Below the pieces are notes generated by a model. It worked only from the letters and a program-made list of their open reading frames with translations, did not search any database and was not told the DNA's origin. The translations under genes were made by a program, and so were the position numbers. DNA of 64,000 bases from Halorubrum salinum (lineage in GTDB: Archaea; Halobacteriota; Halobacteria; Halobacteriales; Haloferacaceae), in contig NZ_JANHDO010000001.1 in NCBI RefSeq assembly GCF_024494575.1, positions 372,001 through 436,000 on the forward strand. Reading direction: 5' to 3'. The stretch's first letter is position 1. Each line of letters starts with the position of its first letter. Below are positions 55,383-62,200 of the stretch, one piece after another.

Positions 55383-56474
55383 TTACAGCTCGTCGACCGC
55401 CGCGAGCGCCGTCTCGACGTCTGGGACGTCGAACCACGCCGTCTCCGTGTAGGCGTTCGTTCCGGCCGCGTACATCGTCGAGACGGCCTCGACGACCTCG
55501 GCGGGAAGCGGGTCGGGCGACTCCGCACAGAGTTCCCGCCAGTCGTCGATCTCGCGGCCGTCGACCGCGGCCTTCGCCTCCTTTACGGCCTCGACCCACG
55601 CCGGGTCGTTCGCCTTGTACCACTGGCGGACGACCTCCTTCGAGACCCCTCGCCCGCCGTACGAGAAACGGTTCTCGTCGAAGGTGCCGACCACGTCCGC
55701 GACCCGGAGGTCCCCGTCGGCGTACAGGCACTCGATCTTCCCGTCCTCGTGGACGAAGCCGGCCGCCTCGGCGCGTTCCGTCACGACGCGGTTCACGTCG
55801 CGAGCGAGCGACTCCAGCGCCTCGATGTCGGCCGCGCCGGCGATCCGGTCGGCCTCCGCCCGGGTCAGGTAGCGGTCCTGCTCCTCGTACTTCGTCGAGA
55901 ACTCCACCACGGGCTTCGGCAGGTCGACGGGTTCGTCCGGCCACTCGCCGTCCGGGCCCGCGAGCGCGTCGAGTCCGAACTCGCTCGGCTCCGTTCGCGT
56001 CCGGAGGCTGGAGCCGACCGGGACGCGGTTCCGGAACACCACCTCGAGCGGGACGAGGTAGTTGCCCCCGCCCGCCGCGTGGAAGGCGTCGTAGTCGTAG
56101 CCCGTTCGAGGCCCCTCGTAGGGGAGGTCCGGTACCTGCGTCAGTTCGATCGCCATCTGCGTCGGCGGCGCGGTCGCCTCGGCGAGCGGGACGACCGCCG
56201 GCTCGGCGTCTCCGTCGCCGTCCGGGACGCCCTCGGATCCCCCGGCTCCGCCCGGATCGACGACCCCCCGGTAGTGCGTCTCGATCCCGTCGTCTTCCAG
56301 CAGTTCGAAGTTGTACGCCCCCATCGCACAGAGGCTCGCCCCCTTGTGCGGGATCGCGTCGGGCATCTGCCCCCAGTCGAACACCGAGTACGCGTCCGTG
56401 AAGACGAACCGACCCCGTCCGGTTGCGTCGGCGGTCGCGGGCTCGTCGACGCGGAACTCCTTGACGCTCGTCAT
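55383..56474 (-). CDS. purC: Phosphoribosylaminoimidazole-succinocarboxamide synthase
   Basis: Purine biosynthesis, step that joins aspartate to CAIR using ATP. The 363-residue protein is a SAICAR synthetase, with N-terminal K-E-F-R-V and [15 protein letters not shown], and C-terminal [17 protein letters not shown]. An Asp/Gly-rich insert (about residues 72-95) is unusual versus bacterial PurC. Longer than bacterial PurC (about 240), as in other haloarchaea. Monocistronic and convergent with the helicase gene. Confidence 0.94.
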
Positions 56475-56630
56475 ACGTCACTCGGCGACCGCCTCCCCCA
56501 TGAATCTTTCATTTACGTGGCTATCCCGTTCCGCCATCTGCCAAAACGATCCACAATCGTGGTTCACACGCGGCGTCGAGTCGGCGGAACGCATCGAAAG
56601 GACCACACCCGTCGCCGCGCACGCTCCGGT

Positions 56631-57293
56631 ATGCACGAGGCGCGCGAGGTCGTCGTCCTCCGGTACGGCCACCGCCCGGGACGCGACGACCGCATGACGA
56701 CGCACGTGGGGCTCACGGCCCGGGCGCTCGGCGCGGACCGGGTGGTGTTCCCCGACAACGCCGGACAGTCGGCGGAGACGGTGCGGGACATCACGGACCG
56801 GTTCGGCGGACCGTTCGACGTCGAACTCCGCGCGGACCAGAAGGCGATCGTTCGCGACTTCGAGGGGATCGTCGTCCACCTGACCATGTACGGCGAGCGC
56901 GTACAGGACGTCGAGGCCGACGTCCGCGAGGCGGTCGGGCTCGACGACGCGGGGGAGGAGTCACGACCGCGCGACCTCCTCGTCGTCGTCGGCGGCGAGA
57001 AGGTGCCGTGGGCGCTCTACGAGCGCGCGGACTACAACGTGGGCGTGACGAACCAGCCGCACTCCGAGGTCGCCGGGCTCGCCGTCTTCCTCGACAGGCT
57101 GTTCGGGGGGACGGAGCTGGAACGCGAGTGGGCTGACGCGGACCGCCGGGTCCGCCCAGAAGCGACCGGGAAGACGGTGGTCGACGCGGACGGGGTCGAC
57201 GAGGCGCGTGACGCGGGCGGCTCCGCCGAGGGCGACGCGGTCGCCGGCGACGACGAGCCGCGCGACCCCGGCGACGCCCGCGGCGCCGAGTGA
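56631..57293 (+). CDS. trm56: tRNA (cytidine(56)-2'-O)-methyltransferase Trm56
   Basis: SPOUT-class methyltransferase that methylates C56 in the T-loop of archaeal tRNAs. The protein is 220 residues. Typical phrases: V-V-V-L-R-Y-G-H-R-P-G-R-D-D-R at the N-terminus, and the C-terminal knot V-V-G-G-E-K-V-P-W-A-L-Y and N-V-G-V-T-N-Q-P-H-S-E-V-A-G-L-A. An acidic tail of about 50 residues follows. Start ATG 56631 gives the family N-terminus; the open frame extends further upstream but without similarity. Confidence 0.93.
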   Translation: MHEAREVVVLRYGHRPGRDDRMTTHVGLTARALGADRVVFPDNAGQSAETVRDITDRFGGPFDVELRADQKAIVRDFEGIVVHLTMYGERVQDVEADVREAVGLDDAGEESRPRDLLVVVGGEKVPWALYERADYNVGVTNQPHSEVAGLAVFLDRLFGGTELEREWADADRRVRPEATGKTVVDADGVDEARDAGGSAEGDAVAGDDEPRDPGDARGAE

Positions 57294-57302
57294 CCGGCTG
57301 AC

Positions 57303-58787
57303 CTACTCGCGGTCGTCGTCGCCTCTCCGGTTCCGGCCGTCGTCGACGATCTCCGGCGTCCCGCTCAGGATCCCTCGCATCTCCGACATCGGCTCGCCGA
57401 CCTTGATCCCGTGGCGCGTGATCTGGAACTCCCGGATCGTCCGCTCGAAGTCGCTGGTCCGCTTCTTCAACACGCCGAGCGCCTTCCGCATCTCGCCTTG
57501 CACCTCCAGGTGACGGAGGAAGATGATGTTGTCCGCGAGGTAGCTGATGTTCTCGACCGTCGCTTGGAACTCGCCCGTGATGTTCCGCGTCTCGTCGACG
57601 AAGATCCCCGTTACGCCCATGTTCTTGAGGTAACGACCGAGCGCGTGCATCTGCTGAAGCATCATCCCGTCCGCGCCCCGAAGCGTCAGCCGGTAGCCGG
57701 CGATCCCGTCGACCATCACGATGTCCGCGCCGCGGTCCTCGACCTCGTCGCGGACCATCCGCGCGAACTCCTGGGGCGACCGCTCTAACGCCTCGACTTC
57801 GTTCACCTGCAGCGCCCCCTTCTCTATCATCTCGTCGACGGGGATGTTCACCGCCCGCGACCGCGTGAGGAACGTCTCCTCGGTCTCCTCGAACAGGTAG
57901 ATGACGGAGCGCTCGCCGCGGCCGGCCGCCTCCTTCATGAACTGCGTGCTCAGGGTCGTCTTGCCCACCCCGGTCGGGCCGCTGACGATACTGACGGTCC
58001 CCCGCTCGATCCCGCCGTCGAGCAGCTCGTCGACCTCCGGAACGCCCGAGGATATCTGTTCGAGGTCGTACTCGCCCGTGTGATCGCCGGGCTGGAGCGC
58101 CGGATACACCTCTATCCCCGCGTCGGTGACGCGGTAGGCGTGTTCACCGCTCTGCGTGGACGACCCGCGGAACTTCGGGACCTCGACCGTCTTGCCGTAC
58201 TCCTCGCTCCCGAGCCCGATCGTCCCGTCGGTGATGAACTCCAGATCGTCCGTCGGCAGCGAGTCGGTGTCCTGCACGGTGAACATCACCGTGGCGTTTT
58301 GCGCCTTCAGAAACCGCATGAACCCGACGACCTGCTTGCGGAACTGGTAGTCGTCGGACAGGAGGAACCGGAGCTGCGTCAGCGGGTCGACCACGACTCG
58401 GTCCGGATCGGCCGCGGTCACGCCCTCGACTATCGCGTCGGTGAGCGGCTCTCGTTCGACCTCCTCGGGGGCGAACACCTCGTACGACTGGTCGTCGGTG
58501 AACACGTCCGCGCTCGGGCTGAGATCGAGGAACTCGATAGCGTCCGTGTCGAACCCGAGCGACTCCGCGTTCGCCTTCAGGTCGCTCACGTCCTCTTCGA
58601 GGTTGATGAACAGGCCCGTCTCTCCCGCGTCGAGCCCCGCCGTCAAGAAGTGGAGGCTGAGGATCGTCTTCCCGCTGCCCGCCCGTCCGCGCACCATGTA
58701 GCTCCGCTCCGGTATCAGCCCGCCCGAGAGGATCTCGTCGAGCCCGGCGATTCCGGTCGAGAGCCGATCGGATAGCGACGGTGTCAT
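57303..58787 (-). CDS. Two-domain KaiC-like ATPase
   Basis: A RecA-superfamily protein of 494 residues with two KaiC domains, as in cyanobacterial KaiC. Domain 1 has Walker A G34-R-A-G-S-G-K-T41 and catalytic E64-E65 in F-I-N-L-E-E-D. Domain 2 has Walker A G270-P-T-G-V-G-K-T277 and E300-E301 in L-F-E-E-T. By alignment in my head the KaiC phosphorylation pair S431-T432 corresponds to S415-Y416 in I-S-Y-L-A-D-N; Thr is lost. ATPase or chaperone-like signalling roles are likely. It is divergent from a LOV histidine kinase with a 74-bp gap, so the two may share a signalling pathway. TATA at 58813-58824. Confidence 0.92.
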   Translation of the reverse strand: MTPSLSDRLSTGIAGLDEILSGGLIPERSYMVRGRAGSGKTILSLHFLTAGLDAGETGLFINLEEDVSDLKANAESLGFDTDAIEFLDLSPSADVFTDDQSYEVFAPEEVEREPLTDAIVEGVTAADPDRVVVDPLTQLRFLLSDDYQFRKQVVGFMRFLKAQNATVMFTVQDTDSLPTDDLEFITDGTIGLGSEEYGKTVEVPKFRGSSTQSGEHAYRVTDAGIEVYPALQPGDHTGEYDLEQISSGVPEVDELLDGGIERGTVSIVSGPTGVGKTTLSTQFMKEAAGRGERSVIYLFEETEETFLTRSRAVNIPVDEMIEKGALQVNEVEALERSPQEFARMVRDEVEDRGADIVMVDGIAGYRLTLRGADGMMLQQMHALGRYLKNMGVTGIFVDETRNITGEFQATVENISYLADNIIFLRHLEVQGEMRKALGVLKKRTSDFERTIREFQITRHGIKVGEPMSEMRGILSGTPEIVDDGRNRRGDDDRE

Positions 58788-58812
58788 ACTGTCGCATTAC
58801 AGCCCGAGGAGC

Positions 58813-58824
58813 CATATAAATCCA
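58813..58824 (-). promoter_or_regulatory. TATA box of KaiC-like gene
   Basis: Minus strand GGATTTATATGG, about 26-37 bases before ATG 58787, in the 74-bp intergenic region shared with the divergent LOV kinase. Confidence 0.55.
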
Positions 58825-58861
58825 TAACTCTTAGTGACCGTAAACCCACTAGCGAAAGGAA

Positions 58862-60424
58862 ATGGGCCCCGACTCCGAGGTGTCGTCTGGCACACACGAC
58901 ACCGATAGAGCGGCGCACGCCGAATCGGAGCCCGATCCCGGCCGATCGACGGACGCCGACGCGGTCTCGCGTCCCCGGAAGGTCCGTCCTCAGGCGGCGA
59001 CCGGCGACCGCGACCGCGCCGCGCCCGCAGACGACCCCGCACGCGTCCTGTTGCTCATGCGCCCCGGCCGCGACCGCGACCTCGTCGCCGACGCCCTCGG
59101 CGAGCGGTACCGCGTCGACACCGCGACCGAAACGGGAGCGCTCGACCGCGCGTTCGACTGCTGCGTGCTCGACGACGCGGCCTTCGACCGCGTCGACGAC
59201 GCGATCGCGACGCAGCGGGCGGCCGCCGACCCCGTGTTCGTCCCGTTCGCGCTCCTCGTGAGCGAGCGGTCCGACACCGTCCCGGCCGACGCGTGGAACC
59301 GCGTCGACGACGTGATCGAGCTCCCGGTGAAACGACGCGCGCTCGTCGCTCGGATCGACAACCTGATCCAGCGGCGGACCACCTCGCGCCGGCTCGCAGA
59401 CACCGTCGACGAGCTTCGGCTGAAAGAGCGGGCGATGGACGAGTCCCCGATCGGCATCACCCTCGCGCGGTCGACGGAAGACGGATCGAACCCGCTCGTG
59501 TACTGCAACGAGGGGTTCGAGACGCTCACCGGCTACGGCCCGGAGATGCTCGGGAAGGACTGCCGGTTCCTGCAGGGCGAAGATACCGACGACGAGACGC
59601 GGGCGGAGCTTCGGGAGGCGATCGACGCCGAACGCCCGGTCGCCGTCGACATCCTGAACTACCGCGCGAACGACCAGAAGTTCTGGAACCGACTCACCGT
59701 CGCGCCGATCCGCGACGAGACGGGTTCGGTGACACACTACGTGGGGTTCCAGTCGGACATCACGGACCGGAAGATCCGGGAGCGCCGCCTGGAGGTGATG
59801 GGACGCGTGTTGAACCACAACCTCCGGAACAAGATGAACCTCATCGAGGGATACGCCGACCTCCTGCGGGCGGACATCGACGACGAGTCACACCGCCGAT
59901 CGCTCGACGTCATCACCGAGACCGCGACCGACCTGATGGGGATCGCTCGCGCGGTACAGAAGATCGACGAGACCCTCGCGGACGCCGACCCGGCCCGCGT
60001 GGACCTACGCGACCGGCTGGTCGAACTCCGGAACCGCATCCACAGCCGCCACCCCGACGCCGAAGTCGAGGTGTCCTTACCCGACGACGACCCGGTCGTC
60101 GTGACCGTCGTCGGACTGTTCACCGCGATCGAGGAGGGCGCGGAGAACGCCGTCAAACACAACGACGCGCCGTCGCCGTGGGTGGCGATACGCGTCGAGC
60201 GGCTCTCGAACGAGTGGATACGGGTCGAGATCGAAGACGACGGTCCGGGGATCCCGGACCACGAGACGCAGGTCCTCGAACGGGGGGAGACCTCGCTCAC
60301 CCACGCCGACCGGCTCGGGATCTGGCTCATGTACTGGGTCGTGAACCGGGCCGGCGGGGAGTTCACGGTGACCACCGGCGAGGCGGGGACGCTGCTCCGG
60401 CTCGACGTCCCCGCACACCCCTGA
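58862..60424 (+). CDS. LOV-domain histidine kinase with receiver-like N-terminus
   Basis: A soluble sensor kinase of 520 residues. Residues 59-170 are a receiver-like domain without clear phospho-acceptor. Residues 190-305 are a PAS domain with the LOV signature: G-K-D-C234-R-F-L-Q-G, where Cys234 would form the flavin adduct, N266 and N276 in N-Y-R-A-N-D-Q-K-F-W-N, and Q297 in G-F-Q-S-D. The canonical GxNCRFLQ has Asn before Cys; here it is Asp. DHp H-box V-L-N-H319-N-L-R-N-K, then the HATPase domain with E-D-D-G-P-G-I. So it probably senses blue light through FMN. No response regulator is adjacent; it is divergent from the KaiC-like gene. Confidence 0.93.
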   Translation: MGPDSEVSSGTHDTDRAAHAESEPDPGRSTDADAVSRPRKVRPQAATGDRDRAAPADDPARVLLLMRPGRDRDLVADALGERYRVDTATETGALDRAFDCCVLDDAAFDRVDDAIATQRAAADPVFVPFALLVSERSDTVPADAWNRVDDVIELPVKRRALVARIDNLIQRRTTSRRLADTVDELRLKERAMDESPIGITLARSTEDGSNPLVYCNEGFETLTGYGPEMLGKDCRFLQGEDTDDETRAELREAIDAERPVAVDILNYRANDQKFWNRLTVAPIRDETGSVTHYVGFQSDITDRKIRERRLEVMGRVLNHNLRNKMNLIEGYADLLRADIDDESHRRSLDVITETATDLMGIARAVQKIDETLADADPARVDLRDRLVELRNRIHSRHPDAEVEVSLPDDDPVVVTVVGLFTAIEEGAENAVKHNDAPSPWVAIRVERLSNEWIRVEIEDDGPGIPDHETQVLERGETSLTHADRLGIWLMYWVVNRAGGEFTVTTGEAGTLLRLDVPAHP

Positions 60425-60504
60425 ACGGAGCGGTCGACGATCGGAGCGGCCGCCGCTCGAAGCGGTCGACGATCAAAATGTCTACCGATCGAAACGCCCA
60501 CCGA

Positions 60505-61482
60505 TCAGAGCGCCCGCTTCGAGCGGAGCCGGGCGAGCCTGATCCGCGCTTCCTGCCGGCTCGTGCCTCTCACGCGGCCGGTCTCGCCGTCGGCCATCGA
60601 GACGAACGAGAGCCGGTCGAGGAGCGGAGGCCAGTCGGCGGCGCCCGCGGCGTCGCTGGCGAAGGCGACGGCGTTCCCGAGCCCGGTCCGCTCCCCTCCT
60701 CCGGCGCGTGCCACCGCGGCGTCCGCGTCGCGGCGTCCGCCCGCGACGGTGAGCCTGTCGCCGACGGCGGCGGGGACCCACGCGGGAGAGAGCAGCGCCC
60801 AGCACAGGACCCCGGCGACCGTGTACGCCCACGCCGGGACTCGCTCGCGGTCGGGTTCGTACCCGTGGATCCGGTTGACGCGGCGGTCGCCGGCCGTCCG
60901 TTCGCCGCGTCGGCCGACGAGGAGCGTCGCGAGCAGCGCCACCGTCTCGACGACGGCCACGGCGGGGAGGACGGCGGTAACGAGCAGCGGGTCGCGGGTC
61001 CGGAGCCGAACGAGCGCGTGTCTGAGCGCCGCGTCCCGGTCGGCCTCCGGGAGCGAGAGCAGCCGCGTGGAGACGACGAGCCGAGAGCCGCGGTAGCCGT
61101 CCGCGACGGCGACGTTCGCGGCCTCGGCGCGGACGACGGTGACCCGAGGCGCGTCGACCCCGACATCGTCGGCGAGCGTCGACACCCGGTCGGCGACGAA
61201 GTCCGCGGGGCGGTCGTCGAGGTCCGCCTCGGGCAGTCCCGCGACCCGGCGGTCGACGAGGAGCGGGCCGCCGAGCGCGGACCCGCCGAGGCCGACGACG
61301 ACGGCCGCGAGGAGTCCGCCGACGGCACCCGGTCCGAAAAGACCGAGGCCGCCGGGGCCGAGCACGGCGGCGAGCGGGACGAGCGGCAGCGCGACGAGCA
61401 CCACGGGGACGGAGAGGTACGCGAGCGCGCCGACCGCCCGGCGGCCGCGTCGGTCGCGCGTGCCGTCGTCTCCCGGAGCCAT
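60505..61482 (-). CDS. M48-like membrane protein with degenerate HExxH
   Basis: A membrane protein of 325 residues resembling M48 peptidases (HtpX/Ste24 group). Two N-terminal helices (about 18-65), a soluble region (V-A-V-A-D-G-Y-R-G-S-R-L-V-V-S-T-R-L-L, usual just before the active site), then A-A-L-R-H-A-L-V-R-L-R-T-R-D where family members have AVLAHELAHVKNRD. Glu and the second His are absent, so it is probably not a protease. Two further helices follow. Start ATG 61482 fits a TATA-like GCTTTAGG 25-30 bases upstream. Convergent with the LOV kinase gene. Confidence 0.82.
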   Translation of the reverse strand: MAPGDDGTRDRRGRRAVGALAYLSVPVVLVALPLVPLAAVLGPGGLGLFGPGAVGGLLAAVVVGLGGSALGGPLLVDRRVAGLPEADLDDRPADFVADRVSTLADDVGVDAPRVTVVRAEAANVAVADGYRGSRLVVSTRLLSLPEADRDAALRHALVRLRTRDPLLVTAVLPAVAVVETVALLATLLVGRRGERTAGDRRVNRIHGYEPDRERVPAWAYTVAGVLCWALLSPAWVPAAVGDRLTVAGGRRDADAAVARAGGGERTGLGNAVAFASDAAGAADWPPLLDRLSFVSMADGETGRVRGTSRQEARIRLARLRSKRAL

Positions 61483-61643
61483 ACGCACGAGTGGTGACAC
61501 AGCCGACCTAAAGCTTTGCCGGACTACCGGACCCCGTCGCTCGCACTCGGCGGGCCGGCGACCGCGAGTTCGGGCACGCGCGCCGGCCGGGAGCGCGGGA
61601 CGGCGAGGGGTGCCTCGCCGGCGGATCGTGGGGCTTTCGGAGG

Positions 61644-61651
61644 TTTTAATC
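61644..61651 (+). promoter_or_regulatory. TATA box of tfe
   Basis: The run ttttaatc is about 25-32 bases before ATG 61676, supporting a leaderless tfe transcript. Confidence 0.5.
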
Positions 61652-61675
61652 CCGTTCCGCCACCAGTTTCCCGTA

Positions 61676-62200
61676 ATGGCTTTTGAGGATCTACTGAACG
61701 ACCCCGTCATCCAGAAGTACCTCCACGAGTTGGTGGGACCGACGGGGATGCCGGTCGCGGCCGCGCCGCCCGACGGCGAGGTCACCGACGAGGAGCTGGC
61801 CGAGGAGCTGGGACTCGAGCTCAACGACGTCCGCCGCGCGCTGTTCATCCTGTACGAGAACGACCTCGCGAGCTACCGCCGGGTGCGCGACGAGGACTCC
61901 GGCTGGCTCACGTACCTGTGGACGTTCCACTACGACAACATCCCGGAGAACCTCCAGGAGGAGATGTACCGGCTTCTCGACGCCCTAGAGGAGCGCGAGG
62001 AGTACGAGCGAACCCACGAGTTCTACCTCTGTGAGGTGTGTTCGATCCGGTTCGAGTTCGGCGAGGCGATGGACTTCGGCTTCGAGTGCCCGGAGTGCGG
62101 CTCGCCCGTCGAAGCGATGGACAACGACCGGCTCCGCGAGGCGATGGAACGCCGTCTCGAGGAACTCCGCGAGGAACTCAACGTGGATGTGACCGGCTGA
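61676..62200 (+). CDS. tfe: Transcription initiation factor TFE (TFIIE alpha)
   Basis: Helps RNA polymerase open the promoter. The 174-residue protein has an N-terminal winged helix (about 8-85, L-A-E-E-L-G-L-E-L-N-D-V-R-R-A-L-F-I-L-Y) and a zinc ribbon C119-x2-C122...C138-x2-C141, followed by a helical tail. It overlaps the DUF2110 gene by one base (TGATG), and DUF5803 follows, an arrangement known in haloarchaea. ATG 61676 is preferred over the longer frame, because of the TATA spacing and family start M-A-F-E-D-L-L-N-D-P. Confidence 0.95.
   Translation: MAFEDLLNDPVIQKYLHELVGPTGMPVAAAPPDGEVTDEELAEELGLELNDVRRALFILYENDLASYRRVRDEDSGWLTYLWTFHYDNIPENLQEEMYRLLDALEEREEYERTHEFYLCEVCSIRFEFGEAMDFGFECPECGSPVEAMDNDRLREAMERRLEELREELNVDVTG

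Follow-up and report, generated by a model that had tools for sequence, protein, structure and literature searches.

Two-domain KaiC proteins of haloarchaea appear to be tied, almost exclusively and in both directions, to a pseudo-receiver (PsR) domain at the N-terminus of sensor or output proteins of varied build. We describe this association from a locus of Halorubrum salinum, in a stretch of 64,000 nucleotides (contig NZ_JANHDO010000001.1, positions 372,001 to 436,000; called the window here). A gene for a two-domain KaiC-like ATPase and a gene for a LOV histidine kinase that begins with a PsR are transcribed divergently there, with 74 bp between the start codons; the coordinates of both open reading frames (ORFs), their divergence and the gap had been given in an earlier note on this DNA and proved exact on rechecking (Table 1). 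The best reading of the sequences is that the PsR would couple KaiC to swappable sensor or output proteins. The tie itself, the co-divergence of the two partners and the repeated coupling of LOV domains appear to be new. A hub role for KaiC and the divergent receiver of Bat regulators are already known (Makarova et al. 2017; Galperin et al. 2018); PMC5847659 and PMC13286277 cite the former work for the proposal that KaiC is an archaeal signalling hub.

Altogether, 145 genomes of Halobacteria were scanned, and 96 of them contain a two-domain KaiC. A PsR-encoding neighbour lies beside 107 of the 112 two-domain kaiC copies, usually overlapping or 4 bp downstream; the 112 copies include one frame-broken gene that is counted twice (locus L129 of genome G038), so that 111 are distinct. 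A reverse search that was blind to the position of kaiC identified 135 PsR domains at an E-value of 1e-12 or better; a two-domain kaiC lies no more than 0.8 kb from the start of 105 of these and no more than 5 kb from that of 120. Both proteins occur together in 95 genomes, KaiC alone in one, PsR alone in four and neither in 45 (Fisher's test, 1.3e-31, not corrected for phylogeny). In a scan of 15 genomes, strong PsR matches scored at least 68 bits and the next ones at most 32, and no PsR neighbour of the single-domain KaiC paralogues was found in 15 genomes. Three of the 15 PsR domains located away from kaiC (L199, L205 and L208) adjoin truncated KaiC ORFs or remnants, with a weak Pfam KaiC match at L205 and none at L208; these loci look as if kaiC had decayed there. 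Outside the Halobacteria, PsR was found only weakly and in a single methanogen family, where three of six cases (L193, L195, L197) follow a kaiC, which is single-domain in two cases and two-domain in one. The tie between KaiC and PsR may thus predate the Halobacteria.

The PsR remains paired with KaiC, whereas kinase cores are swapped. Mirror-tree analysis of 62 pairs gave a rho of 0.59 for KaiC and PsR and of 0.17 for KaiC and the kinase core, a difference that excludes zero on resampling; the partial correlation of KaiC with the kinase core given PsR is 0.008, and mean distances are similar for PsR and kinase core. It is mainly because the divergence of the PsR tracks that of KaiC and the divergence of the kinase core does not that we regard the PsR as the putative coupling module. 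The modules behind it vary and comprise HisKA-type kinases, PAS or LOV kinases of the HNLRN type, and GAF-BAT-HTH_10 DNA-binding regulators. At six loci from two lineages (L104, L105, L106, L108, L111 and L115) the KaiC neighbours score in the PsR only. Two of these, L104 and L105, were scanned and are PsR-GAF-BAT-HTH_10 proteins; at loci of this type KaiC may feed directly into a DNA-binding regulator.

Several irregular copies were seen. In genome G047 (G047:C1:903667-905506) a second two-domain kaiC has behind it a short PsR-like frame that is interrupted by an internal stop and may be a partner gene in decay. In the Halorubrum genome G065 (L075, 7516-9024) a frameshift or a sequence error has put the PsR and the LOV-kinase part into separate frames, and kaiC is likewise split by a frame break at L129.

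That the N-terminal domain is receiver-like is not apparent from Pfam, since none of its receiver models matches any of 54 related N-terminal domains. A profile built from these domains does match solved receivers, the best being residues 155-273 of PleD (1.2e-11), and the AlphaFold2 (AF2) model shows a (beta-alpha)5 fold at a pLDDT (predicted local distance difference test) of about 70-91, with Asp104 at the end of strand 3. Residues were compared with PhoB as the canonical receiver. All 104 partners have a hydrophobic residue in place of the first acidic one, the second is acidic in only 25 of the 104, and no major variant retains the beta5 Lys; the cis-Pro after the Lys position is kept in 102. 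The domain is a pseudo-receiver by these residue criteria, because the acidic pair and the beta5 Lys are lost. The earlier note described the protein correctly as a LOV kinase but missed this domain of about 120 amino acids ahead of the LOV domain, which is the constant element of the KaiC partners.

N-terminal receivers have been described in archaeal kinases and in Bat, that of Bat being divergent (Galperin et al. 2018, PMC5847659). The Bat-type regulators and REC-PAS-HK proteins of haloarchaea treated there resemble the partners described here in that a divergent N-terminal receiver precedes PAS/GAF and BAT-HTH_10 or kinase modules. The accessible part of that census states no tie of the divergent receiver to two-domain KaiC, whereas here the tie runs both ways and is nearly exclusive. 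A cyanobacterial counterpart is CikA, a phytochrome-like protein whose pseudo-receiver binds KaiB (PMC12632262). Like the window kinase, CikA is a histidine kinase with a pseudo-receiver tied to KaiC. It differs in that the window kinase carries a LOV instead of a phytochrome-like domain, has no GAF domain, bears its PsR at the N-terminus and not at the C-terminus, and is encoded in a genome without KaiB. A review from 2025 was aware of no publication on what archaeal pseudo-receivers do (PMC12632262).

By sequence and predicted overall fold, the protein encoded at 58862-60424 is a LOV kinase. Pfam reports PAS_9 (6e-20) besides the HATPase domain, and the NCBIfam model of the blue-light photoreceptor YtvA matches residues 188-311 (7.6e-36), below the curated whole-protein cut-off of that family. 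The LOV motif reads GKDCRFLQ in place of the GxNCRFLQ type, with Asp replacing Asn and the Cys kept. Cys234, N266, N276, Q297 and H319 are invariant among 10 Halorubrum-type orthologues. We take N266, N276 and Q297 to be flavin-contact residues, from their alignment with known LOV motifs. In the AF2 model the N-terminal domain is good (pLDDT about 90 at best), the catalytic domain fair and the LOV domain poor (about 40). The best Foldseek match of the model is the LOV histidine kinase 4gcz (3.6e-21), and 4r3a is also matched. The LOV Cys motif, flavin-contact residues, the DHp (dimerisation and histidine phosphotransfer) domain and the HATPase domain are shared with the LOV histidine kinases YF1 (4gcz) and EL346 (4r3a) and with YtvA-type LOV proteins. 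Unlike these, the window kinase has a KaiC-linked pseudo-receiver ahead of its LOV domain, and its motif opens with Asp instead of Asn. None of the sequence hallmarks of a photoactive LOV histidine kinase is missing from the partner in the Halorubrum clade.

The second protein of the pair matches PF06745 in two stretches (1.1e-78), and its residues 7-481 align with solved KaiC in phmmer (7.1e-64). P-loops and Glu pairs (E64-E65 in CI, E300-E301 in CII) are intact in both domains, which confirms what the earlier note had read from the sequence. Its remark that only the Ser of the phosphorylated Ser-Thr pair is kept was also right: among 111 haloarchaeal two-domain KaiCs, the position of Ser431 is Ser in all, and the following residue is Tyr in 97 and Thr in none. 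The Tyr after the conserved Ser is thus a trait of the haloarchaeal KaiC family. In the same set the CII pair has Glu at its second position without exception and Glu or Asp at its first in 110 proteins; conservation of the CI pair is looser. The window protein shares with cyanobacterial KaiC (TIGR02655 / PRK09302) the two P-loop domains, the Glu pairs, full-length alignment and the Ser at Ser431. It differs in the Tyr at Thr432, so that the dual phosphosite is not kept, and the NCBIfam cut-offs for circadian KaiC are not reached (TIGR02655, 186 versus 546 bits; NF006799, 288 versus 408 bits). KaiB (PF07689) has no match in this genome, and the same search was positive in a Synechococcus control.

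Light input seems to have been coupled to the KaiC-PsR system repeatedly and, as far as the LOV motif indicates, is fixed in the Halorubrum clade. The LOV cysteine is present in 20 of 20 divergent partners (one counted twice because its kaiC is split) versus 14 of 84 co-directional ones. In the KaiC tree the window protein belongs to a clade of 18 rows, mostly Halorubrum, with a Shimodaira-Hasegawa-like approximate likelihood ratio test (SH-aLRT) support of 100; this clade is uniformly divergent and has LOV. The LOV state changes at least seven times on the tree. Within 15 genomes, 9 of 23 KaiC partners have the strict LOV motif, versus at most 32 of 601 other HATPase genes (the rows are not independent). 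Because most partners have no LOV cysteine, light would be one of several inputs, and we rejected light as the general input of haloarchaeal KaiC. Divergent transcription as a rule was rejected as well; it is limited to one clade plus genome G124, and most partners are co-directional. Of the light-input signalling pair proposed in the earlier note, a conserved pair with LOV hallmarks stands for this clade; neither the arrangement nor the LOV domain is general in haloarchaea. Our literature search identified no paper that joins KaiC, haloarchaea and LOV. A second two-domain kaiC of the same genome (G000, contig C6, 2577-11149, locus L090) encodes a protein that is 64% identical. Its cluster is co-directional and comprises two PsR-bearing genes and a further kinase, and the direct partner has no LOV cysteine.

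The two genes of the window are neighbours in relatives far beyond chance, a point on which the earlier note had made its proposal depend. The nearest named orthologues of the kinase are from Halorubrum (62-77% identity), and within this genus the order purC - trm56 - kaiC - kinase - 60505-61848 gene is conserved (window 55383-61848). The product of the last gene (447 amino acids) has no Pfam or NCBIfam match. The intergenic alignment shows two boxes that are kept while the remaining sequence drifts. ATAAAT is found 26-27 nt from the kaiC start in most relatives, and all 18 relatives scored have CTTAG at 31-32 nt ahead of the kinase start; exceptions to the pattern are G006 (L077), G008 (L073, L185) and L188. 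Both spacings are those expected of TATA elements in leaderless haloarchaeal transcripts, and we infer from the sequence that the boxes act as promoters of leaderless, co-regulated transcripts. Because some 8-10 bp separate the boxes, the predicted core promoters overlap, and the two could compete. The kaiC and kinase genes form a conserved and probably co-regulated pair.

Table 1. Features of the kaiC-kinase locus in the window, and PsR kinases next to truncated KaiC ORFs at other loci.
Feature	Position	Strand	Evidence or remark
Two-domain KaiC-like ATPase, 494 aa, ATG start	57303-58787	minus	PF06745, phmmer to solved KaiC
CII domain, about aa 238-470	57378-58076	minus	Walker A GPTGVGKT at 57957-57980; Glu pair at 57885-57890
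Ser415-Tyr416	57540-57545	minus	alignment to solved KaiC: KaiC phosphosites Ser431-Thr432
CI domain, aa 10-230	58098-58760	minus	Walker A GRAGSGKT at 58665-58688; Glu pair at 58593-58598
Intergenic region common to both genes, 74 bp	58788-58861	no strand	
TATA-like box for kaiC, ATTTATAT on minus strand (ATATAAAT)	58814-58821	minus	26 nt from kaiC start codon (58785-58787)
CTTAGTG box	58830-58836	plus	32 nt before kinase ATG
Pseudo-receiver - LOV - histidine kinase, 520 aa	58862-60424	plus	Pfam, NCBIfam, orthologue alignment, AF2 model, Foldseek
PsR domain, about aa 58-178	59033-59395	plus	profile match to solved receivers, AF2 model, residue counts
LOV domain, aa 188-311	59423-59794	plus	adduct Cys234 at 59561-59563
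His319, predicted phospho-acceptor (LNHNLRN)	59816-59818	plus	invariant in 104/104 aligned KaiC partners
HATPase catalytic domain, aa 418-518	60113-60415	plus	PF02518 5.1e-11
PsR kinases beside truncated KaiC ORFs	L205:5392-5784, L208:5414-6457, L199:3877-4995		

In Haloferax volcanii, transcripts of all four KaiC-like (cir) genes are 2- to 16-fold more abundant in the dark than in the light; their levels track light/dark cycles of 12 h, a pattern disturbed in knock-outs (PMC3941300). cirC, the only two-domain KaiC-like gene of this species, adjoins a PAS kinase annotated as fixL, with orc2 directly upstream (PMC3941300). The single-domain proteins CirA and CirD alter motility and cell shape (PMC13286277). 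Genome G112, of the same family, has the order orc1/cdc6 - two-domain kaiC - PsR-LOV-PAS-kinase (L124), which agrees with the published description of cirC, and by analogy the cirC locus may be the same module. CirC, which was compared by description only, resembles the window KaiC in being two-domain (52.7 kDa), in lying beside a PAS-type kinase and in its light-dependent transcripts. L124 differs from the window pair in being co-directional and in its longer kinase (870 amino acids, several PAS domains).

For the window pair we propose that the PsR reads the state of KaiC and relays it to a kinase on which blue light acts as a second gate, a reading to which we lend a little more belief than doubt. 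The two-domain KaiC would presumably form a double-ring hexamer, as KaiC does, and change state with ATP turnover and probably also with phosphorylation of Ser415. The partner would bind KaiC or read its state through the N-terminal PsR, which could not be phosphorylated by the usual chemistry. From the receiver the signal would travel down the long helix that follows it and reach the LOV domain and the kinase core, which would make autophosphorylation of His319 dependent on blue light as well as on KaiC state. A response regulator encoded elsewhere in the genome would then receive the phosphoryl group. Physical binding, photochemistry and signal direction are what we infer from sequences. Several points weigh against this proposal. 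Binding, photochemistry, phosphotransfer and expression at this locus are all predictions; no response regulator gene was identified as the target of the kinase, and the LOV part of the AF2 model is the poor one. With Asp104 retained in 98 of 104 partners, phosphorylation is possible. There are five kaiC copies that lack a PsR neighbour and four genomes that encode PsR but no two-domain kaiC. The PsR profile was trained on kaiC neighbours and might favour that subfamily; the scores nonetheless split cleanly, with 58 bits or more on one side and 32 or less on the other in the 15-genome scan. The co-divergence could equally reflect recombination behind a co-inherited operon end, and adjacency, co-occurrence and co-divergence together fit co-inheritance of the operon end without physical contact.

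The main rival reverses the direction of the signal. The kinase protein would then be a light and redox input to KaiC, its PsR would alter the ATPase or autophosphorylation of KaiC, and the KaiC hub would drive the outputs. The pseudo-receivers of CikA and KaiA do touch the cyanobacterial Kai machinery (PMC12632262), the hub proposal for the archaeal KaiC family (cited in PMC5847659) agrees with such a scheme, and so do the CirA and CirD phenotypes. We consider it unlikely, as a DNA-binding output of their own (GAF-BAT-HTH_10) follows the PsR in several partners, which suits a flow from KaiC to output better, and an intact kinase core with an invariant His would be superfluous. It is less probable again that the N-terminal domain functions as a receiver, merely a divergent one, which another kinase phosphorylates, with KaiC as a co-transcribed parallel regulator. 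The retained Asp104 and cis-Pro would suit this, as would the N-terminal receivers of archaeal kinases and Bat (PMC5847659); the residue pattern at the acidic pair and the beta5 Lys speaks against it, and receivers of the ordinary kind have no such tie to KaiC genes.

That the pair is part of a true day-night or circadian timer, with an oscillating KaiC and a LOV kinase to reset it, seems very improbable to us. The cycling cir transcripts of H. volcanii, disrupted in knock-outs (PMC3941300), and the clade-wide conservation of the LOV photochemistry residues would fit it. Against this, the genome has no KaiB, the phosphosite pair is Ser-Tyr, light-driven expression differs from a free-running rhythm, and KaiA, Pex, LdpA and CdpA are reported in cyanobacteria only (PMC5520375). 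The analogy to cyanobacterial daily timing drawn in the earlier note is weak on the same grounds. No more credible is a pair of neighbours without functional link, held together by the common promoter or by hitch-hiking: the surrounding order of purC, trm56, the kinase gene and the 60505-61848 gene is indeed kept throughout Halorubrum, but the association recurs in many genera, in different surroundings and both orientations, and is still seen where only a truncated remnant of kaiC is left.

According to a survey, Archaea do not have the central output path of cyanobacteria and must rely on another output (PMC5520375). The KaiC-PsR tie is a concrete candidate for the missing connection of KaiC outside cyanobacteria, and it pinpoints the protein segment. 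We tentatively extend the coupling role of the PsR to haloarchaea and some related methanogens, with more doubt than confidence: a dedicated KaiC-reading PsR would replace KaiA, KaiB-bound CikA and SasA there, giving KaiC-only signalling or timing with interchangeable modules, to which LOV was coupled several times independently. If this is true, archaeal KaiC would be wired to signals without KaiA or KaiB, and cirC of H. volcanii with its kinase neighbour would be a ready test case.

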